A DNA stretch of 64,000 bases. Source: Acidimicrobiales bacterium. GTDB lineage: Bacteria; Actinomycetota; Acidimicrobiia; Acidimicrobiales; Bog-793. The stretch spans positions 1 to 64,000 of the forward strand of contig DATLTN010000047.1 in NCBI GenBank assembly GCA_035533595.1. The letters are read 5' to 3'. A model generated the notes under the pieces. The model did not search any database. It had not been told where the DNA came from and worked only from the letters and a program-made list of their open reading frames with translations. Of this stretch, positions 52,749 through 64,000 are shown piece after piece; position 1 is the first letter of the stretch; each line of letters begins with the position of its first letter. Both the position numbers and the translations under genes were made by a program.

Positions 52749-53998
52749 CGGAAGGCCTCCTCCACCTTGTGCAGCGCGGCGACGAGCGCGTCGATCTCGG
52801 TCGTCGTCGAGTAGCAGCCGAGCGAGGCGCGCGCCGTCGCTGGGATGCCGAGGCGCTCCATCAGCGGCTGCGCGCAGTGGTGGCCGGTGCGCACCGCGAC
52901 CCCCTCGCGGTCGAGGATCGTGCCGATGTCGTGCGGGTGCACGTCGGCGAGGGTGAACGAGAGGACGCCGACCTTGGCGGGCGCCGTCCCGACGAGGGTG
53001 AGGCCGGGCACCGCTTCAAGGGCGGCCGTGCCGTAGGAGAGGACCGCGGCCTCGTGGCGCTCCAGCCCCTCGCCGCGTATGCGCTCGAGGAAGCCGACCG
53101 CGCTCGCCAGGCCGACCGCGCCCGAGAGGTCCGGGGTCCCGGCCTCGAAGCGCTGCGGCGGCGCGGCGTAGGTCGTCCCCGAGAAGCGCACGGTGCGGAT
53201 CATGTCGCCACCGCCCTGGTAGGGGGGCATCTCCTCGAGGAGCTCGCGCCGCCCCCAGAGCACCCCGATGCCGGTCGGCCCGTACATCTTGTGGCCCGAG
53301 AAGGCGTAGAAGTCACAGCCGAGCTCGGCGACGTCGACCGGCAGGTGCGGGACGGCCTGCGCGCCGTCGACGACGACGACCGCGCCGACGCCGTGCGCGC
53401 GCGCCGCGACCTCGCGCACCGGGTTCACGGCGCCGAGCACGTTCGAGACGTGGGCGAGGGCGACGATCCGCGTCCGCTCGCTGAGCAGCGAGTCGAGCGC
53501 CGAGAGCTCGAGGACGCCCGTGTCGTCGACCGGGAGGACGACGAGGTGCGCCCCCCGCTCCTCGCAGACGAGCTGCCAGGGGACGATGTTCGAGTGGTGC
53601 TCCATCTCGGTGACGAGGACCTCGTCGCCGGCGCGCAGGTGGGTGCGGCCGTAGCTGTGGGCGACGAGGTTCAGCGCCTCGGTGGTGCCGCGGGTGAAGA
53701 TCACCTCGGAGTCCGCGGCGGCCCCGAGGAAGGCGGCGAGGCGCGCCCGCGCCCCCTCGTAGTCCTCGGTCGCCCGCTCAGAGAGGTAGTGCACGCCGCG
53801 GTGGACGTTCGCGTTGTGGCCGGCGTAGAAGGCGGTGATCGCGTCCAGCACGACCTGCGGCTTGTGGCTCGTCGCCGCCGAGTCGAGGTAGACGAGGGGC
53901 TTGCCGTAGGGACGGGTGGAGAGGATCGGGAACTCGGCGCGCAGCGCCTCGATGTCGAGGCGACCGAGCAGCGCCGCCTCGGCGACGGGGGTGGTCAT
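52745..53998 (-). CDS. sufS: Cysteine desulfurase SufS
   Basis: A 417-residue PLP-dependent class V aminotransferase that releases sulfur from cysteine. It has 'YLDSAATSHKPQVVLDAITA', the PLP lysine in 'YAFSGHKMYGPTGIGVLWG', and the catalytic cysteine in 'VAVRTGHHCAQPLMERLG'. It overlaps sufD by 4 nt upstream and sufU by 4 nt downstream. Confidence 0.95.
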   Translation of the reverse strand: MTTPVAEAALLGRLDIEALRAEFPILSTRPYGKPLVYLDSAATSHKPQVVLDAITAFYAGHNANVHRGVHYLSERATEDYEGARARLAAFLGAAADSEVIFTRGTTEALNLVAHSYGRTHLRAGDEVLVTEMEHHSNIVPWQLVCEERGAHLVVLPVDDTGVLELSALDSLLSERTRIVALAHVSNVLGAVNPVREVAARAHGVGAVVVVDGAQAVPHLPVDVAELGCDFYAFSGHKMYGPTGIGVLWGRRELLEEMPPYQGGGDMIRTVRFSGTTYAAPPQRFEAGTPDLSGAVGLASAVGFLERIRGEGLERHEAAVLSYGTAALEAVPGLTLVGTAPAKVGVLSFTLADVHPHDIGTILDREGVAVRTGHHCAQPLMERLGIPATARASLGCYSTTTEIDALVAALHKVEEAFR

Positions 53999-55307
53999 CG
54001 GCCGGCCCGGCTCGCAACGGGCACCCGCTCGGCGACGAGCTCGTGCACGTGGCTGCGCAGGAGCGCCGGCTCGAAGCGCTCGAGGAGCTCGCCGACGAAC
54101 CCCGAGATGAGGAGCTGGCGGGCGGCCTCCTCGGGGATGCCCCGCGAGCGGAGGTAGAAGAGCGCCTCGTCGTCGAGCTGCCCCACAGCCGCGCCGTGGG
54201 AGACCTTCACGTCGTCGGCGAGGATCTCGAGGCGGGGGCGGGTGTCCACCTCGGCCTGGTCCGAGAGGAGGAGGTTCTTGTTCGCCTGGCTGGCGTCGGT
54301 GCCGCCGGCGTCGAGGGCGACGAGCACCCTGCCGTTGAAGACACCGTGCGCCCGGTCGTCGACCACGCCCTTGTAGAGCTCGCGGCTCACGCAGTGGCCG
54401 GCGTCGTGGGCGATCGTCGTCGGGTTGTCGTGCTGCTGCTCGCCGTGGGGCATGAAAAGGCCGTTCACCTCGGCGGAGGCGCCCTCGCCGGTGAGGTGGA
54501 CCTGCACCTCGTGACGGGCGATCGCCCCCCCGAGCGCGAGCGACTGCGAAGAGAAGTGGCTGTCGCGACCCTGGCGGACGTCGAGGGCGGCGAGGTGGAA
54601 GGCCTGCTCACCCTCGAGCTGCACCTTGTAGTGGGAGAGCGTCGCGCCCGCGCCGAGCACGATCTCGGTGACCGCGTTGTCGAGGTAGCAGCCGTCGGCG
54701 GCGCCGTAGTAGCTCTCGACGACCGTCGCCCGGCTGTGCGCGCCGGCGACGACGACGGTGCGGGGGCTCACGAGCAGCGGCCCGGCCGTGCGGCTCTGCA
54801 GGAAGACGAGGTGGAGCGGCGCCTCGATCACCGCCTCCTCGTCGATCACGAGGTAGGCGCCGTCCGCGGCGAAGGCGGTGTTGAGCGAGCCGAAGGTGTC
54901 CGAGGTGGCGAGCGCGGCGCGCAGGTGCGCCTCGAGGACGGCGCGGTCCTCGACGAGCGCCTGCGCGAGCGCCTTCACGCGAAAGCCCGCCGCGTCCCCG
55001 CCGAGGCGGGAGCGGGAGCTGTCGAGGTGTCCGTTCACGAACACGACGCGGGCGCCGCCGAGATCCGGGACGCGGGCGTCGAGGGCGGCGAGTTCCTCGG
55101 GCGCGGGCGCATCCGCGGCGACGGAGAGCTCGAGCGCGAGCAGCGGCGCGAGACGGGTGTAACGCCAGTCCTCGTGCTTTCGCGTCGGGAAGCCCTGGGC
55201 GGCGGCGCGCGCGTAGGCCTCGCGCCGCAGCGCGCCGAGCCAGCTGTCGTCGCCGCTGTCCTCGACGGGGAGGGGGCCCGCCCAGTCGAGGGTCGCCGTT
55301 AGTGCGG

Positions 55308-55311
<4 letters not shown>
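53995..55311 (-). CDS. sufD: Fe-S cluster scaffold subunit SufD
   Basis: A 438-residue SufBD-family protein. It has the conserved 'RKHEDWRYTRLAPLLAL' near the N-terminus, the beta-helix core with 'VVESYYGAADGCYLDNAVTE', and the C-terminal 'SHGAAVGQLDDEALFYLRSR' and 'GIPEEAARQLLISGF'. It forms the SufBC2D scaffold with SufB and SufC. The starts and stops overlap sufC and sufS by 4 nt each. Confidence 0.94.
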
Positions 55312-57499
<2,188 letters not shown>

Positions 57500-57604
57500 C
57501 GCACGCCGCTCCAGCCCTCTCCTGACGCACTGGCCATCTCTGAACCTCGTCTCCTTCGTGGCGCCGACCACGTCCCACGGGCGGAGCCGCCGGAGCCTGC
57601 GCAC

Positions 57605-57634
57605 AGGTTAGATTCGAAAGTTGTTACTTGCCAA
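57605..57634 (-). promoter_or_regulatory. suf operon promoter
   Basis: On the minus strand, TTGGCA (57634-57629) and TAACCT (57610-57605) are separated by 18 nt. Transcription should start near 57598, giving a leader of about 100 nt before sufB. This differs from the leaderless layout of many other genes in the window. Confidence 0.65.
57618..57629. promoter_or_regulatory. Candidate SufR operator
   Basis: The inverted repeat AAGT-TGTT-ACTT sits in the spacer of the suf promoter. A SufR dimer bound there would block RNA polymerase. The motif is short and the assignment rests on position. Confidence 0.45.
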
Positions 57635-57659
57635 ACTAGCGAGAACGAGGGGTCGAGGG

Positions 57660-57665
57660 TACATT
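57660..57665 (+). promoter_or_regulatory. -10 box for sufR (leaderless type)
   Basis: TACATT with 7 nt to ATG 57673. This supports ATG 57673 over the in-frame TTG at 57664, which would overlap the box. Confidence 0.6.
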
Positions 57666-57672
57666 GACAGGC

Positions 57673-58332
57673 ATGAGCAGCGCCCCACCGGCGCTCGCCG
57701 GCCTCTCGCCGGCGCAGCGACAGGTCCTCGTCGCGCTAAAGCGCCGCGGCGAAGCGACCGCCGAGGAGCTCGCCGAGGATCTCGGCATCACTGCGAGCGG
57801 CGTCCGCCAGCATCTCGCGACCCTCAAGTCGTCCGGGGTGATCAGCTCCCGCCAGGCGCGTGGGCGTCCGGGCCGCCCGGCGGACATCTTCCACTCGACC
57901 GAGCTCGCCGATGCCCACTTCCAGAGCGGCGCCGACGGCCTCACCCGCGAGCTGCTCGACCTGATGGCCGAGGAGGACCCGCAGCTGCTCCCCCGCATCC
58001 TCGACCGCCGCCGCGGGCACCGCGTCGACCAGGTGCGCGACCTGCTCGCCGGCGAGGAGGGCCTGGAGGCGAAGATGGATGCCCTCGTGCGCCTCCTCGA
58101 CGGCGAGGGCTACCTCGCCGACGTCGAGCGGTCGGCGGGCGAGACGTACCGCCTCACGCTCCACAACTGCGCGATCTGGGCGCTCGCCTCGCAGTACGGG
58201 GAGACCTGCGACTCCGAGCTCGACCTTCTGCGCGAGGTGCTCCCAGGCGCCTCGATCGAGCGCTTCTCGCACAAGGTTGCCGGCGCCTTCGTCTGCGGCT
58301 ACGAAATTCGCCCGCTCCTGCAGACCCACTGA
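57673..58332 (+). CDS. sufR: SufR-type Fe-S-sensing transcriptional repressor
   Basis: A 219-residue regulator. The N-terminal winged helix ('EATAEELAEDLGITASGVRQ', 'HLATLKSSGVISSRQ') is followed by the C-terminal cluster region with three cysteines spaced as in SufR: 'LHNCAIWALASQYG', 'ETCDSELDLL' and 'VAGAFVCGYEI'. It should sense cluster status and repress the suf operon. In many actinobacteria sufR is the first gene of the operon; here it is divergent. Confidence 0.9.
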   Translation: MSSAPPALAGLSPAQRQVLVALKRRGEATAEELAEDLGITASGVRQHLATLKSSGVISSRQARGRPGRPADIFHSTELADAHFQSGADGLTRELLDLMAEEDPQLLPRILDRRRGHRVDQVRDLLAGEEGLEAKMDALVRLLDGEGYLADVERSAGETYRLTLHNCAIWALASQYGETCDSELDLLREVLPGASIERFSHKVAGAFVCGYEIRPLLQTH

Positions 58333-59540: not shown

Positions 59541-60602
59541 ATGGCAAATTTCTACGACAACTGGCTCGGCATGTGGGACAAGGCCGAGGAAGAGCGAGCC
59601 GCTTCACGACGCAATATCCATGAAGAGGAGCTCCAGTGGGTCGAGACCGCGCAGGATTTCCGCGCGGCATTGATGATCTCCCCGGAGACCGGATTCCGGA
59701 CCTGGGGGACGACGACGATGACCGCTGAGATCCCTTCCGGTGGGCACACCGGAGCCCACAAACACGGCGAAGAAGCGATCCTCATCGTCGAGGGCACGGG
59801 CTACAGCGTGATCGACAACATCCGCTACGACTGGAAGCGCCACAGCGTCGTCGCCGTCCCCTTCGGCGCGGTGCACCAGCACTTCAACACCGGGGATGAC
59901 ACGGTCCGCTACGTCTCGATCCTCTCGGTCCACCTCGAGCACTACGCCGGCCTGCACCGCACGATCCAGGTCGAGCCCTTCGGCATGACGAGCACCGAGC
60001 CCGACGTCGAGCGCTCGCCGGACGGCCTCGCCCCGGAGGGCAACCGGATCGTGCTGCACCGCGAGGACGGCACCCGCCAGGGCGGGGAGACCGACGGGGT
60101 GCCCGTCCCCGAGATACCCGCGGAGATGCCGGAGTTCGACCCCGAGCACCCCCTCATCCTCGGCGACCTCGACGGCATGGGCCGCCTTCCGGTCGGCATG
60201 CACCACGGCGGCTCGTCGGGGGTCGGCTTCATGAGCTGCCGCCGCGAGGTGAACGGCTTCCGGGTCTACGAGAACGAGATCAGCGGCATCCTCTCCGACG
60301 AGCCGCACGCGTACGGCGGGATGCACGCGCACATGGAGGCGCACCTGTACTGCCTCGCCGGCCACGGCTACACGACGGTCGGTGACGAGAAGGTGGAGTG
60401 GAGAAAGGGCAGCGCATGGTGGGTGCCGGGGCCGCAGACCCCCCACCGTCACGTCAACGAGTCCGACGAGCACTCCGAGATGGTCCGCATCGCCTTCGGC
60501 ATCCGCTACTTCTTCGAGCGTTCGGCGAAGCGCGAGTTCCCCTACCTCTACCTCTCGCCGCGTCAGGCCGTCCTCGAGCGGAGCTCGGCCGGGCGGAGCT
60601 GA
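59541..60602 (+). CDS. Bicupin protein A (gentisate-dioxygenase-like)
   Basis: A protein of 353 residues with two cupin domains. Domain 1 has 'HTGAHKHGEEAILIVEGTGY' (H73, H75) and 'VPFGAVHQHFNTGDD' (H112, H114). Domain 2 has 'GGMHAHMEAHLYCLAGHGYT' and 'PGPQTPHRHVNESDEHSE'. Such bicupins include ring-cleaving dioxygenases (gentisate, 1-hydroxy-2-naphthoate type), but the activity here is not proven. It opens 'ANFYDNWLGMWDKAEEERAA', shared with its paralogue at 62.4 kb. It converges on a Rieske oxygenase gene. Confidence 0.8.
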   Translation: MANFYDNWLGMWDKAEEERAASRRNIHEEELQWVETAQDFRAALMISPETGFRTWGTTTMTAEIPSGGHTGAHKHGEEAILIVEGTGYSVIDNIRYDWKRHSVVAVPFGAVHQHFNTGDDTVRYVSILSVHLEHYAGLHRTIQVEPFGMTSTEPDVERSPDGLAPEGNRIVLHREDGTRQGGETDGVPVPEIPAEMPEFDPEHPLILGDLDGMGRLPVGMHHGGSSGVGFMSCRREVNGFRVYENEISGILSDEPHAYGGMHAHMEAHLYCLAGHGYTTVGDEKVEWRKGSAWWVPGPQTPHRHVNESDEHSEMVRIAFGIRYFFERSAKREFPYLYLSPRQAVLERSSAGRS

Positions 60603-60617
60603 GGGCCGACCGCGAGC

Positions 60618-60652
60618 CCGCCCCGGCCCGGCGAAAGCCGGCGCCAGGGCGG
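60618..60652. terminator. Two-tier hairpin between convergent bicupin and Rieske genes
   Basis: Outer stem CCGCCC/GGGCGG (60618-60623 with 60647-60652) and inner stem CCGGC-GAAA-GCCGG (60628-60641). It lies in the 54-bp gap between converging stops and is a likely bidirectional terminator without a U-tract. Confidence 0.5.
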
Positions 60653-60656
60653 CGGC

Positions 60657-61961
60657 TCAGCCGAGCGTCGAGTAGTGCCGCGAGTCCGCCTGGCGGGACT
60701 CCGCCGTGGCCTCGACCCAGGACTCCTCCTCGGTGAGGATCGCCGTGGTGGAGCGCACCCGCTGCGCGACCGGCTCGAGGCCGGAGGGCGTTCCCCCGTC
60801 CCGGACCGCGTGCGCCTCGGCGACGAGGCGGCTGCGCGACGCGACGATCGCCGCGTCCGAGCTCCCGAGGCGCTCGCGGGAGGGGTCGAACTCCGGTCCC
60901 ATACTCTCCTGCATCGCCGAGTCCTGGGTGCCGACCCCGGAAATTCCGCTGATCGAGATCATGTGCGCCTGCAGGCGGCGGTCGATGAGATAGTCGTTGT
61001 GCTCGTTCTGGATGGGGATGTTCGTCCCCGGCAGGCAGATCGCGTGAATTCCCAGACCGTTCGTGCAGAATTCCCGCTCGCGCGCGTTGAGCGCTCGCTC
61101 GGGGTGATAGGTGATGCTCCACGCCATGCAGTGCGTATCGTCGATCGGCACCCAGGCGTGCGCACCGATCGCACCGTCCCCGTCGCGCGGAATGAAGGTG
61201 TACCAGGGCATCAGCCACTGCGTGATCCGCCAGTAATAACCGCCGTCGGGAGCGTTCCTTCGGGCGCCGATGAGGAGGCCGTATTCCGTCGGCTCGATGA
61301 AGAAGCGCGGCGCGGTGTCGGCGTTCAGCAGCCGGGACTGGGTGAGCGGGCCGCTCCCGGACCAGTAACCGATGTCGGCGTGCAGGAACGAGACGTGGCT
61401 CGAGTCGATCCCGCCCTCCATCGCCTGGGTGAAGCACGTGTTCTCGAGGCGCCGGGAGACGAAGCGCTGCTCGGAGGGGACGATCGCCCACTCGAGCTCG
61501 GGGAGCGCCGGCATCAGCTCCGCCGGCCCCATGTAGGCCCAGATGATCCCGCCGCGCTCGACGCCCGGGTAGCTCGTCAGCTGCACGTGCTCCTTGAAGC
61601 GGCTGGCCGCCGGCTCGTTCGGCATGTCGATGCAGCGGCCGTCGACGTCGTACTTCCAGCCGTGGTAGGCGCAGCGCAGCCCGACCTGGCCGTCGGGCGA
61701 GCTCTCGCCCTCGTTGCGGCCGAAGAACAGCGAAGCGCGGCGGTGCGCGCAGAGCTCCTGCAAGAAGGCGATCCGCCCCTCCATGTCCCGGAAGCAGACG
61801 AGCCGCTCGCCCATCAGCTGGACGCGCACCGGGGCGGACCATCCGAGGGGGAGCTCGTCGGCGGGCAGCGCCGGCACCCAAAAGCGCCGCAGCAGCTCGC
61901 CGAGCTCGGTGCCCGGGCCCGTCTGGTTCAACAGCTCGGTGTCGTTCACGAAAGTCGGCAT
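60657..61961 (-). CDS. Rieske non-heme iron oxygenase, phthalate-4,5-dioxygenase-like large subunit
   Basis: A 434-residue ring-hydroxylating-type oxygenase. The Rieske cluster site is 'CAHRRASLFFGRN' (C71, H73) and 'GLRCAYHGWKYDVDGRC' (C97, H100), with a spacer between the halves a few residues longer than usual. The iron site is 'EGGIDSSHVSFLHADIG'. 'FLQELCAHR' and the overall plan match the phthalate/vanillate/carnitine-type group. It needs a separate reductase, which is not in the window. ATG 61961 follows GAGGGGG. It is flanked by two bicupin genes. Confidence 0.9.
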   Translation of the reverse strand: MPTFVNDTELLNQTGPGTELGELLRRFWVPALPADELPLGWSAPVRVQLMGERLVCFRDMEGRIAFLQELCAHRRASLFFGRNEGESSPDGQVGLRCAYHGWKYDVDGRCIDMPNEPAASRFKEHVQLTSYPGVERGGIIWAYMGPAELMPALPELEWAIVPSEQRFVSRRLENTCFTQAMEGGIDSSHVSFLHADIGYWSGSGPLTQSRLLNADTAPRFFIEPTEYGLLIGARRNAPDGGYYWRITQWLMPWYTFIPRDGDGAIGAHAWVPIDDTHCMAWSITYHPERALNAREREFCTNGLGIHAICLPGTNIPIQNEHNDYLIDRRLQAHMISISGISGVGTQDSAMQESMGPEFDPSRERLGSSDAAIVASRSRLVAEAHAVRDGGTPSGLEPVAQRVRSTTAILTEEESWVEATAESRQADSRHYSTLG

Positions 61962-62352
61962 GAACCCCCTCGTCCCGCCAAGCCGCGGCGGACCCCACCC
62001 CCGGAGCGGGCCGATAGTACCGCGCGGCCACTCCGGCGCAGTCGTGTCGGACTGCGTCGCCGCGGCGCGCGTTGCGGGCTCCGTAACCGAAACGCAGTTC
62101 TTCCGCCAAGGACAAGGGACCCGCGCGGGCGCCTCGCGCCGCTCCTCAGCCATGCAAAAGTTTGCGGGGTTGACAAGTCACCGAGCGTGGTAGCGTGCCC
62201 CGCTGGGGCGGGACAAGCACCGCTAGCAGGGCGTTCTTGTGTGCAGGGCGGAAGCCGGCGCTGCAAGGGCAGCACCGGAGACATCCGTTCGAAATGTTGA
62301 CGAGGGGGAATCGGGGGCCGGGAGGAGTGCGATTCCGGCGGGAGGGGACGCG
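61962..62352. other. Divergent promoter region between Rieske and second bicupin genes
   Basis: This 391-bp region has no gene. On the plus strand TTGACA (62170-62175) and TAGCGT (62191-62196) form a promoter with a short 15-nt spacer, implying a leader of about 150 nt. On the minus strand TACTAT (62019-62014) is a possible -10 box for the Rieske gene, with no clear -35. No palindrome stands out. Confidence 0.5.
62170..62196 (+). promoter_or_regulatory. Promoter for the second bicupin gene
   Basis: A consensus TTGACA and TAGCGT separated by 15 nt (short). GGAGGGGA at 62341-62348 is the ribosome site for GTG 62353. Confidence 0.45.
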
Positions 62353-63402
62353 GTGACGAACTTTTACGACAACTGGCTCGGAATGTGGGACCGGGCCGAG
62401 GAAGAGCGACGGCTGGCCCGCAAGAACATCCACGAGGAGGAGCTCGAGTGGGTGGAGACGCGCCAGGACGCGCGCGCCGCCCTGATGGTCGCCCCCGAGA
62501 CGGGCTTCCGCACCTGGGGGACGGTCACGATGATCGCGGAGATCCCCCCGCACGCGCACTCCGGGGCGCACAAGCACGGCGAGGAGGCGGTGCTCATCGT
62601 CGAGGGCGAGGGCTACAGCGTCGTCGACAACGTGCGCTACGACTGGAAGAAGCACAGCCTCGTCGCGATCCCCTTCGGCGCGGTGCACCAGCACTTCAAC
62701 ACCGGTGAGACGACCGCCCGCTACCTGTCGGTCCTCTCCCCCCACCTCGAGCACTTCTGCGGGCTGCACCGCACCGTGCAGGTCGAGGACTGGGGGCGCA
62801 CCACCACCGAGCCGGACGTCGAGACCTCGCCGAACGGCTACGCGGCGGACGGCTCGCGGGTGCTTTTGCACCGCGAGGACGCGATCCTGAGCAAGGGCGA
62901 GGGCGACGGCGTGCCGACGATGCCGAACGAGATGCCCGAGTTCGACCCCGAGCATCCGCTCATCCTCGGCGACCTCGACGGCATGGCGAGCCTGCCACCG
63001 GGCTTCCACAAGTCCCAGATCCTCGGCTACATGCGCATCGGCAAGGACACCAACGACGTGCGCATGCACGAGGTCGAGATCAGCGGCCTGCTCACCGATC
63101 CCCCGCACGAGTACGGCGGGATGCACGCCCACATGGAGGCGCACCTCTACATCCTCCAGGGGGAGGGGTACTCGACCGTCGGCGACGAGAAGGTCCCGTG
63201 GAAGACCGGCACCGCCTTCCACGTGCCGGGCCCGCAGACGCCGCACCGCCACGTGAACGAGGGGGACGTCCCCTCAGAGATGGTGCGGATCGCCTTCGGC
63301 ATCCGCTACTTCTTCGAGCGCGCCGCGAAGCGCGAGTTCCCCTACCTCTACCTCTCGCCGCGACAAGCGGTGCTGGAGCGCAGCTCGGCAGGTGGTCGGT
63401 AA
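62353..63402 (+). CDS. Bicupin protein B, paralogue of the 59.5-kb gene
   Basis: A 349-residue two-cupin protein closely related to bicupin A, with long identical blocks: 'FYDNWLGMWD', 'AVHQHFNTG', 'MPEFDPEHPLILGDLDGM' and 'AKREFPYLYLSPRQAVLERS'. Cupin 1 has 'HSGAHKHGEEAVLIVEGEGY' and cupin 2 'GGMHAHMEAHLYILQGEGYS'. The central part (about residues 190-245) differs most and may set specificity or regulation. GTG 62353 with GGAGGGGA upstream is the start. An ABC permease gene follows 27 nt later. Confidence 0.8.
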   Translation: MTNFYDNWLGMWDRAEEERRLARKNIHEEELEWVETRQDARAALMVAPETGFRTWGTVTMIAEIPPHAHSGAHKHGEEAVLIVEGEGYSVVDNVRYDWKKHSLVAIPFGAVHQHFNTGETTARYLSVLSPHLEHFCGLHRTVQVEDWGRTTTEPDVETSPNGYAADGSRVLLHREDAILSKGEGDGVPTMPNEMPEFDPEHPLILGDLDGMASLPPGFHKSQILGYMRIGKDTNDVRMHEVEISGLLTDPPHEYGGMHAHMEAHLYILQGEGYSTVGDEKVPWKTGTAFHVPGPQTPHRHVNEGDVPSEMVRIAFGIRYFFERAAKREFPYLYLSPRQAVLERSSAGGR

Positions 63403-63429
63403 GGGCATCGCGGCAGAAAGCGGGCGGGG

Positions 63430-64000
63430 GTGAACCAAGCACTGCAGATCATCTGGCGGCGGGCGATCCATCTTGTCCCCGTCGCGCTCGCGGCGACCTT
63501 CGTCTCGTTCCTCCTCGTCAACCTCCAGCAGGGGAACACCGCGCTCGCCGTGCTCGGCACCAGCGCGACGCCGGAGTCGATCCACCAGTTCGACCTCAAG
63601 TACGGGCTCAACCACTCCCTGCTCTACCGCTACTTTTCCTGGCTCTGGCAGGCGCTGCACGGCCACCTCGGCTACTCGTACCAGACCCAGCAGTCGGTGG
63701 CCTCCGAGATCGTGCAGCGCTTCCCGGTCACCCTCGAGCTCATCTGCCTCGGGATCTTCCTTGCGGTGATCACCGCCGTCCCGGCCTCGATCCTCGCCGC
63801 CCGCCGCCCGATGAAGGCTGCCGACTGGATGGGCCGCGGCGTCGCGATGGTCGGCTTCTCGATGCCGGGCTTCGTGCTCGGGCCGCTGCTGCTCCTCGTC
63901 TTCGCCGTCAAGCTGAAGATCGTGCCCTCGGTCGGCTTCGTGCCGATCACCCAGAACCTCTGGCAGAACCTGCGGATCATGATCCTGCCGGGGGTGGCGC
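63430..64000 (+). CDS. ABC transporter permease, DppB/OppB type, truncated by window edge
   Basis: The first 190 codons are present. An N-terminal membrane segment ('HLVPVALAATFVSFLLVNLQ') is followed by 'YGLNHSLLYRYFSWLWQALH' and 'GHLGYSYQTQQSVASEIVQR', then further membrane segments and 'MVGFSMPGFVLGPLLLLVF'. The order is that of dipeptide/oligopeptide/nickel-type permease subunit 1. GTG 63430 is the start. Its closeness to bicupin B suggests one transcript and uptake of the substrate of this cluster. Confidence 0.88.
   Translation, partial: MNQALQIIWRRAIHLVPVALAATFVSFLLVNLQQGNTALAVLGTSATPESIHQFDLKYGLNHSLLYRYFSWLWQALHGHLGYSYQTQQSVASEIVQRFPVTLELICLGIFLAVITAVPASILAARRPMKAADWMGRGVAMVGFSMPGFVLGPLLLLVFAVKLKIVPSVGFVPITQNLWQNLRIMILPGVA

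Follow-up and report, generated by a model that had tools for sequence, protein, structure and literature searches.

The window, by which we mean the whole stretch of 64,000 bases analyzed here (C47:1-64000), is part of a 73,675-base contig in a draft genome of 2.79 Mb, and a further 9.7 kb was examined to its right. Near its right-hand end lie two bicupin genes, A and B, on either side of a gene for a Rieske non-heme iron oxygenase, followed by the beginning of an ABC importer permease gene (Table 1). For these four genes, the frames, strands, and coordinates given in a preliminary description of this DNA were reproduced. Bicupin A and the Rieske gene are convergent and the Rieske gene and bicupin B are divergent, an order consistent with separate transcription units for the two bicupins. 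The longest Rieske frame extends to 62153, and a start at 61961 is more likely. Bicupin B is presumed to head an operon running into the ABC importer and a TRIP13-type ATPase gene. Directly to the left of bicupin A, iron-sulfur cluster assembly genes of the SUF type and an ArsR/HTH-type regulator were identified from sequence, the latter being the one covered by a domain scan.

Table 1. Features of the right-hand part of the window and of the contig beyond it. Positions are counted from the first base of the window.
Feature	Position	Strand	Remarks
SUF iron-sulfur cluster assembly genes and ArsR/HTH-type regulator	53995-58332
ArsR/HTH-type regulator	57664-58332
Bicupin A, 353 aa	59541-60602	+	Cupin_2 twice; extra paralog, no adjoining ATPase gene
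Rieske non-heme iron oxygenase, isophthalate-dioxygenase-like	60657-61961	-	PF00355 and PF19301; 434 aa from likely start
Intergenic region between divergent Rieske gene and bicupin B	61962-62352	.	Presumed promoters, from gene order
Bicupin B, 349 aa	62353-63402	+	Cupin_2 twice; first gene of presumed operon
ABC importer permease (OppB/NikB type), 5' part	63430-64000	+	NikB/OppB-like; crosses window end
OppB, complete	63430-64395	+	Completes permease cut by window end
OppC	64379-65257	+
OppD	to 66288	+
OppF	to 67349	+
TRIP13-type AAA+ ATPase	67346-68245	+	ATG overlaps OppF stop by 4 bases
HicB-like small protein	68271-68606	+	No Pfam hit
Zinc alcohol dehydrogenase	68643-69767	+
Family-5 binding protein	69933-71510	+

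The importer had been predicted to continue to the right, and the 9.7 kb extension indeed holds OppB, OppC, OppD, OppF, and a family-5 binding protein, all genes from the first to the last of these being tightly spaced on one strand. Between bicupin B and the ATPase gene, which follows on the right, lie 3.9 kb with four importer genes. Beyond the binding protein come a PEBP-like gene on the opposite strand and then, where the contig ends, an IS110-like transposase. No ferredoxin reductase, which the preliminary description had suggested looking for on this side, and no other reductase for the Rieske enzyme is among the genes of these 9.7 kb.

Cupin_2 matches two times in each bicupin (1.3e-16 and 4.5e-21). 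The two proteins are 73% identical (255/351) and their genes 75% identical at the DNA level with no near-identical long block, so that they are paralogs and not an assembly duplicate; gene conversion was rejected on the same grounds. Along the gene, identity drops to about 60% in the middle (DNA positions 525-600 and 675-750) and peaks, at 0.84-0.87, over the second half of cupin 1 and the C-terminus, in keeping with the earlier view of paralogs that have diverged centrally. The accompanying proposal that the pair forms a heteromer or acts on successive substrates found no support: each of the two relatives examined (n = 2; see below) has one close-type bicupin, and the second copy therefore looks like a local duplication.

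Both cupin domains carry an HxH...H motif (H73, H75, and H112 in cupin 1; H258, H260, and H298, in the numbering of B, in cupin 2) that is invariant across the four type I bicupins. Cupin 1 can be aligned with each of the two cupin domains of gentisate dioxygenase 3bu7, and the histidines then match. When the metal ligands were checked against known dioxygenases, as had been suggested for this locus, the three-histidine sites thus lined up with those of gentisate dioxygenase. The bicupins are likely to be ring-cleavage enzymes resembling gentisate dioxygenase. Their scores are 17 and 20 bits with the NCBIfam equivalog model for gentisate 1,2-dioxygenase (TIGR02272, cut-off 442) and 33-36 bits with that for 5-aminosalicylate dioxygenase (cut-off 650). 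Gentisate 1,2-dioxygenase and the 5-nitro/5-aminosalicylate dioxygenases are the closest known cupin enzymes, but the bicupins lie far below the cut-offs of the two models and, unlike those enzymes, are of a type that is paired with an ATPase.

The oxygenase has a Rieske domain (PF00355, 1.8e-16) and a LigXa C-terminal domain (PF19301, 9.3e-34), which places it in the LigXa/phthalate-type class, in line with its earlier assignment to the phthalate/vanillate type. Its best solved relative is the isophthalate dioxygenase of Comamonas testosteroni KF1 (375 bits, 46.6% identical), in which R234 and H257, both essential, bind the two carboxylates (PMC12445078). Compared with that enzyme (9INA/9IOY), the window protein keeps R234, H257, I246, I294, and V178 as well as the iron ligands D..H....H, but has Asp for F249 and Val for F333, so that the ring pocket differs. 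Because the carboxylate-binding pair is conserved and the two phenylalanines are replaced, the substrate is probably a carboxylated aromatic compound, not necessarily isophthalate. About 17-20 stretches of the window's genome (2.8 Mb) are related to the Rieske oxygenase. One on contig C16, 54% identical to isophthalate dioxygenase, has both phenylalanines of the pocket. A second Rieske gene, on contig C27, is 71% identical to that of the window and is also followed by a HicB-like protein without a Pfam hit (L010:11463-11852).

The AAA+ gene downstream of OppF was not anticipated in the preliminary description. The TRIP13/Pch2 proteins known so far are hexameric and pull on a client to switch its conformation, remodeling HORMA proteins in cell division (spindle checkpoint) and in phage defense (CBASS). 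By its sequence, the contig's AAA+ gene is a member of this TRIP13/Pch2 (CBASS Cap6) family. The PADLOC TRIP13 model PDLC00915 matches its product full-length (residues 17-299, 2.9e-89), and its closest PDB relative by sequence is PCH-2 (8.5e-24). Walker A, Walker B, the sensor Asn, the Arg finger, and GRxxRK, all near-invariant columns, are present. In a structure model of the homolog from Rugosimonospora (pLDDT 72.5), the first eight PDB matches are all PCH-2, human TRIP13 or two bacterial Trip13 proteins (Z 21.4-19.1), headed by PCH-2, TRIP13, and E. coli Trip13 (Z 21.4-20.5).

Only two close bicupins were found in the named genome collection, one in an Acidimicrobiaceae draft genome and one in Rugosimonospora africana. 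Bicupin B is 75% and 69% identical to them, and both are directly followed by the ATPase gene, in the order Rieske oxygenase, SDR, bicupin, AAA+ ATPase; the Acidimicrobiaceae relative additionally has an OppF-like ATPase upstream and a zinc dehydrogenase downstream. Since the ATPase gene stands next to the bicupin in both relatives, we consider it part of the cassette. The R. africana cassette also has a second, divergent cupin upstream (L037:1-480), whose surroundings include an amidohydrolase and a tandem RidA protein. Taken as a whole, the earlier interpretation of the locus is partly supported. The catabolic module finds support in the completed importer, the alcohol dehydrogenase next to it, the gentisate-dioxygenase ligands of the bicupins, and the joint occurrence of Rieske oxygenase, SDR, and bicupin in the two relatives. 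The conserved partner of the bicupin, which that interpretation did not include, is the TRIP13-family ATPase and not the Rieske oxygenase.

Searches with the ATPase only were carried out in 395 genomes of the class, 396 of the phylum, and 397 of the order, the last with the PADLOC profile; whole-genome searches covered Actinomycetota, and plasmid searches extended across phyla. Besides the window's own genome there were 16 loci, namely 13 with a cupin directly beside the ATPase, two CBASS loci, and one locus on a contig too short (3 kb) to show its neighbors. The cupin is a bicupin in twelve of the 13 and a single-domain cupin in one (L053), and in several loci the bicupin stop overlaps the ATPase start by 4-10 bases. 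At L070 the pair is convergently oriented and would not share a transcript. The single-domain cupins of L053 (L053:6859-7362) and L054 (L054:1779-2366) are of one type; the former sits immediately upstream of its own TRIP13-type ATPase gene, and the latter is separated by about 7 kb from a pair of bicupin and ATPase. A gene following the type II ATPase looked M20-peptidase-like by motif, judged by eye, but gave no Pfam hit, and we do not claim its identity. We found no report of a TRIP13-type ATPase/cupin pairing in the open-licence literature.

When the 395 class genomes were searched with a type II bicupin, eight matched besides the window's own, the same eight as in the ATPase search; an overlap of this kind has a chance of 7e-17 if the two are independent, which is not a strict probability because the genomes share ancestry. 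The distance matrices of bicupins and ATPases correlate with r = 0.80, and with r = 0.94 when restricted to type II, values that include species history and that none of 5000 mirror-tree permutations reached. Bicupin A and one copy in another genome (G407) have no adjoining ATPase, and both genomes hold an ATPase elsewhere. The genes beside the pair vary: the hydroxylase is a Rieske or a molybdenum enzyme, the transporter Opp or TctABC, and a ThDP enzyme or amidohydrolases may be present.

These distributions bear on what the ATPase acts on. The cluster could be an ordinary aromatic catabolic one, with an AAA+ gene that is there as a passenger or that encodes a general chaperone not specifically linked to the bicupin; the Rieske oxygenase, importer, and dehydrogenases alone already make a coherent pathway, and at this locus the ATPase gene does not adjoin bicupin B. 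We regard this as quite unlikely, as the same pair recurs in 13 of the 16 ATPase-found loci amid widely different genes, and bicupin and ATPase are identically distributed in the class sample. The most plausible of the alternatives, although still unlikely, is that the client is the hydroxylase (the Rieske or the molybdenum enzyme) or another neighbor. A Rieske gene is indeed present in all three type I loci, but hydroxylases change from locus to locus and the cupin is the sole partner common to all 16 cupin loci. With the cupin constant while hydroxylase and transporter change, we take the bicupin to be the client of the motor.

TRIP13-type ATPases are also found in CBASS, and a degraded or unusual CBASS defense system near a catabolic cluster had to be considered, the strength of the PADLOC match being such that a defense annotator could flag this ATPase. 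Using HMMs built here, we compared 14 CBASS loci with 16 cupin loci: the thirteen found with the ATPase, those of the two relatives, and that of the window. A bicupin was detected in 16/16 cupin loci and 0/14 CBASS loci, HORMA in 0/16 and 14/14, and CD-NTase in 0/16 and 14/14. Most cupin loci had served to train the bicupin HMM, and most CBASS loci the HORMA and CD-NTase HMMs, so that the information lies in the zeros and in the adjacency; the HORMA result applies to these loci and to profiles derived from CBASS HORMA proteins. Bacterial plasmids yielded 12 homologs of the ATPase, each in a CBASS operon that includes HORMA and CD-NTase genes (12/12), and a plasmid search with the bicupin gave no match at E 1e-8. 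In an unrooted tree, the ATPases of CBASS loci cluster together (84/88 support; recovered in 81% of bootstrap trees), and the cupin-linked proteins form several deep lineages. A CBASS identity of the cupin loci is contradicted by the absence of HORMA and CD-NTase matches from all 16 with these profiles, and a remnant or aberrant CBASS system is extremely improbable as an explanation of the locus. Separately, a plasmid of Haloarcula halophila (L072:5950-8406) carries a TRIP13-type ATPase with a HORMA-like gene (1.2e-13) and no CD-NTase found nearby, and a genome of the window's family has a real CBASS operon (L085:8671-11942) beside an apparent mraZ/cell-division cluster.

The cupin-linked ATPases share AAA+ subfamily, length, and catalytic motifs with Cap6/Trip13 of type III CBASS, to which they are 34-44% identical, but are accompanied by a bicupin in place of HORMA, CD-NTase, and effector and differ in pore loop 1, the client-gripping loop of AAA+ motors. 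Six alignment columns split the two sets, four of them at positions 112-122, in this loop. It reads LPSxxLGxSQRN in the cupin-linked proteins, with variant positions LPS(E/Q/D)(L/M)LG, whereas CBASS proteins have L(A/T/G/M)Sxx(M/H)G(K/Q)(T/S)Q, with mostly small residues and Met or His.

We therefore favor, with a probability of roughly 0.6, a cassette for aromatic-acid degradation whose TRIP13-family motor remodels a gentisate-dioxygenase-like bicupin and not a HORMA protein. The three genes of the window are the left end of this larger aromatic-degradation gene set. The pairing itself is established by the searches above; as to substrate, catalysis, physical contact, and the direction and purpose of remodeling, we infer the following course. 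The Opp-type importer would take up the compound, and the isophthalate-dioxygenase-like Rieske enzyme would hydroxylate its carboxylated ring. Dehydrogenases (the zinc enzyme here, the SDR in the relatives) would act on the product, and the bicupin, with its two three-histidine metal sites, would cleave the ring. The dedicated TRIP13/Pch2-family ATPase would grip the bicupin, perhaps by an N-terminal helix predicted at residues 3-24; the bicupin B model is of low confidence (pLDDT 43.9), which makes the helix as a handle a guess. The pull of the motor may then assemble or reactivate the non-heme iron dioxygenase, as TRIP13 proteins remodel HORMA proteins. Rubisco activase/CbbX and the NorQ/CbbQ-type proteins work in a comparable way, as dedicated AAA+ motors encoded beside the metabolic enzyme that they help, although their AAA+ subfamilies and clients differ. 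Against the bicupin as client of a dedicated motor, bicupin B does not adjoin the ATPase gene in the window's genome, bicupin A and the G407 copy stand alone, the two genes of L070 are convergent, and the partner in L053 is a single-domain cupin. Alternatively, bicupin and ATPase could form a sensor or regulatory switch, in which remodeling of a ligand-binding cupin governs expression or transport. Cupins with a metal site can bind ligands, and TRIP13 proteins do switch HORMA proteins, but the three histidines of gentisate dioxygenases are kept at both cupin sites and the genes sit within catabolic operons; we consider such a switch improbable and rank it below a passenger ATPase.

More broadly, we hold at about even odds that the cupin-linked ATPases constitute a second, HORMA-independent bacterial branch of TRIP13-family AAA+ motors, dedicated to cupin ring-cleavage enzymes and acting as a metabolic activase. 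CBASS TRIP13 may conceivably have derived from this cupin-linked branch; the ATPase tree, being unrooted, is compatible with either order of descent. If the proposal is true, cupin oxygenases would form a class of TRIP13/Pch2 clients that is independent of HORMA, defense annotation by the TRIP13 profile only could mislabel catabolic operons, and how a motor protein assembles or reactivates a non-heme iron dioxygenase would become a testable question. The pairing also marks bicupin genes that may fail if expressed without their ATPase partner.
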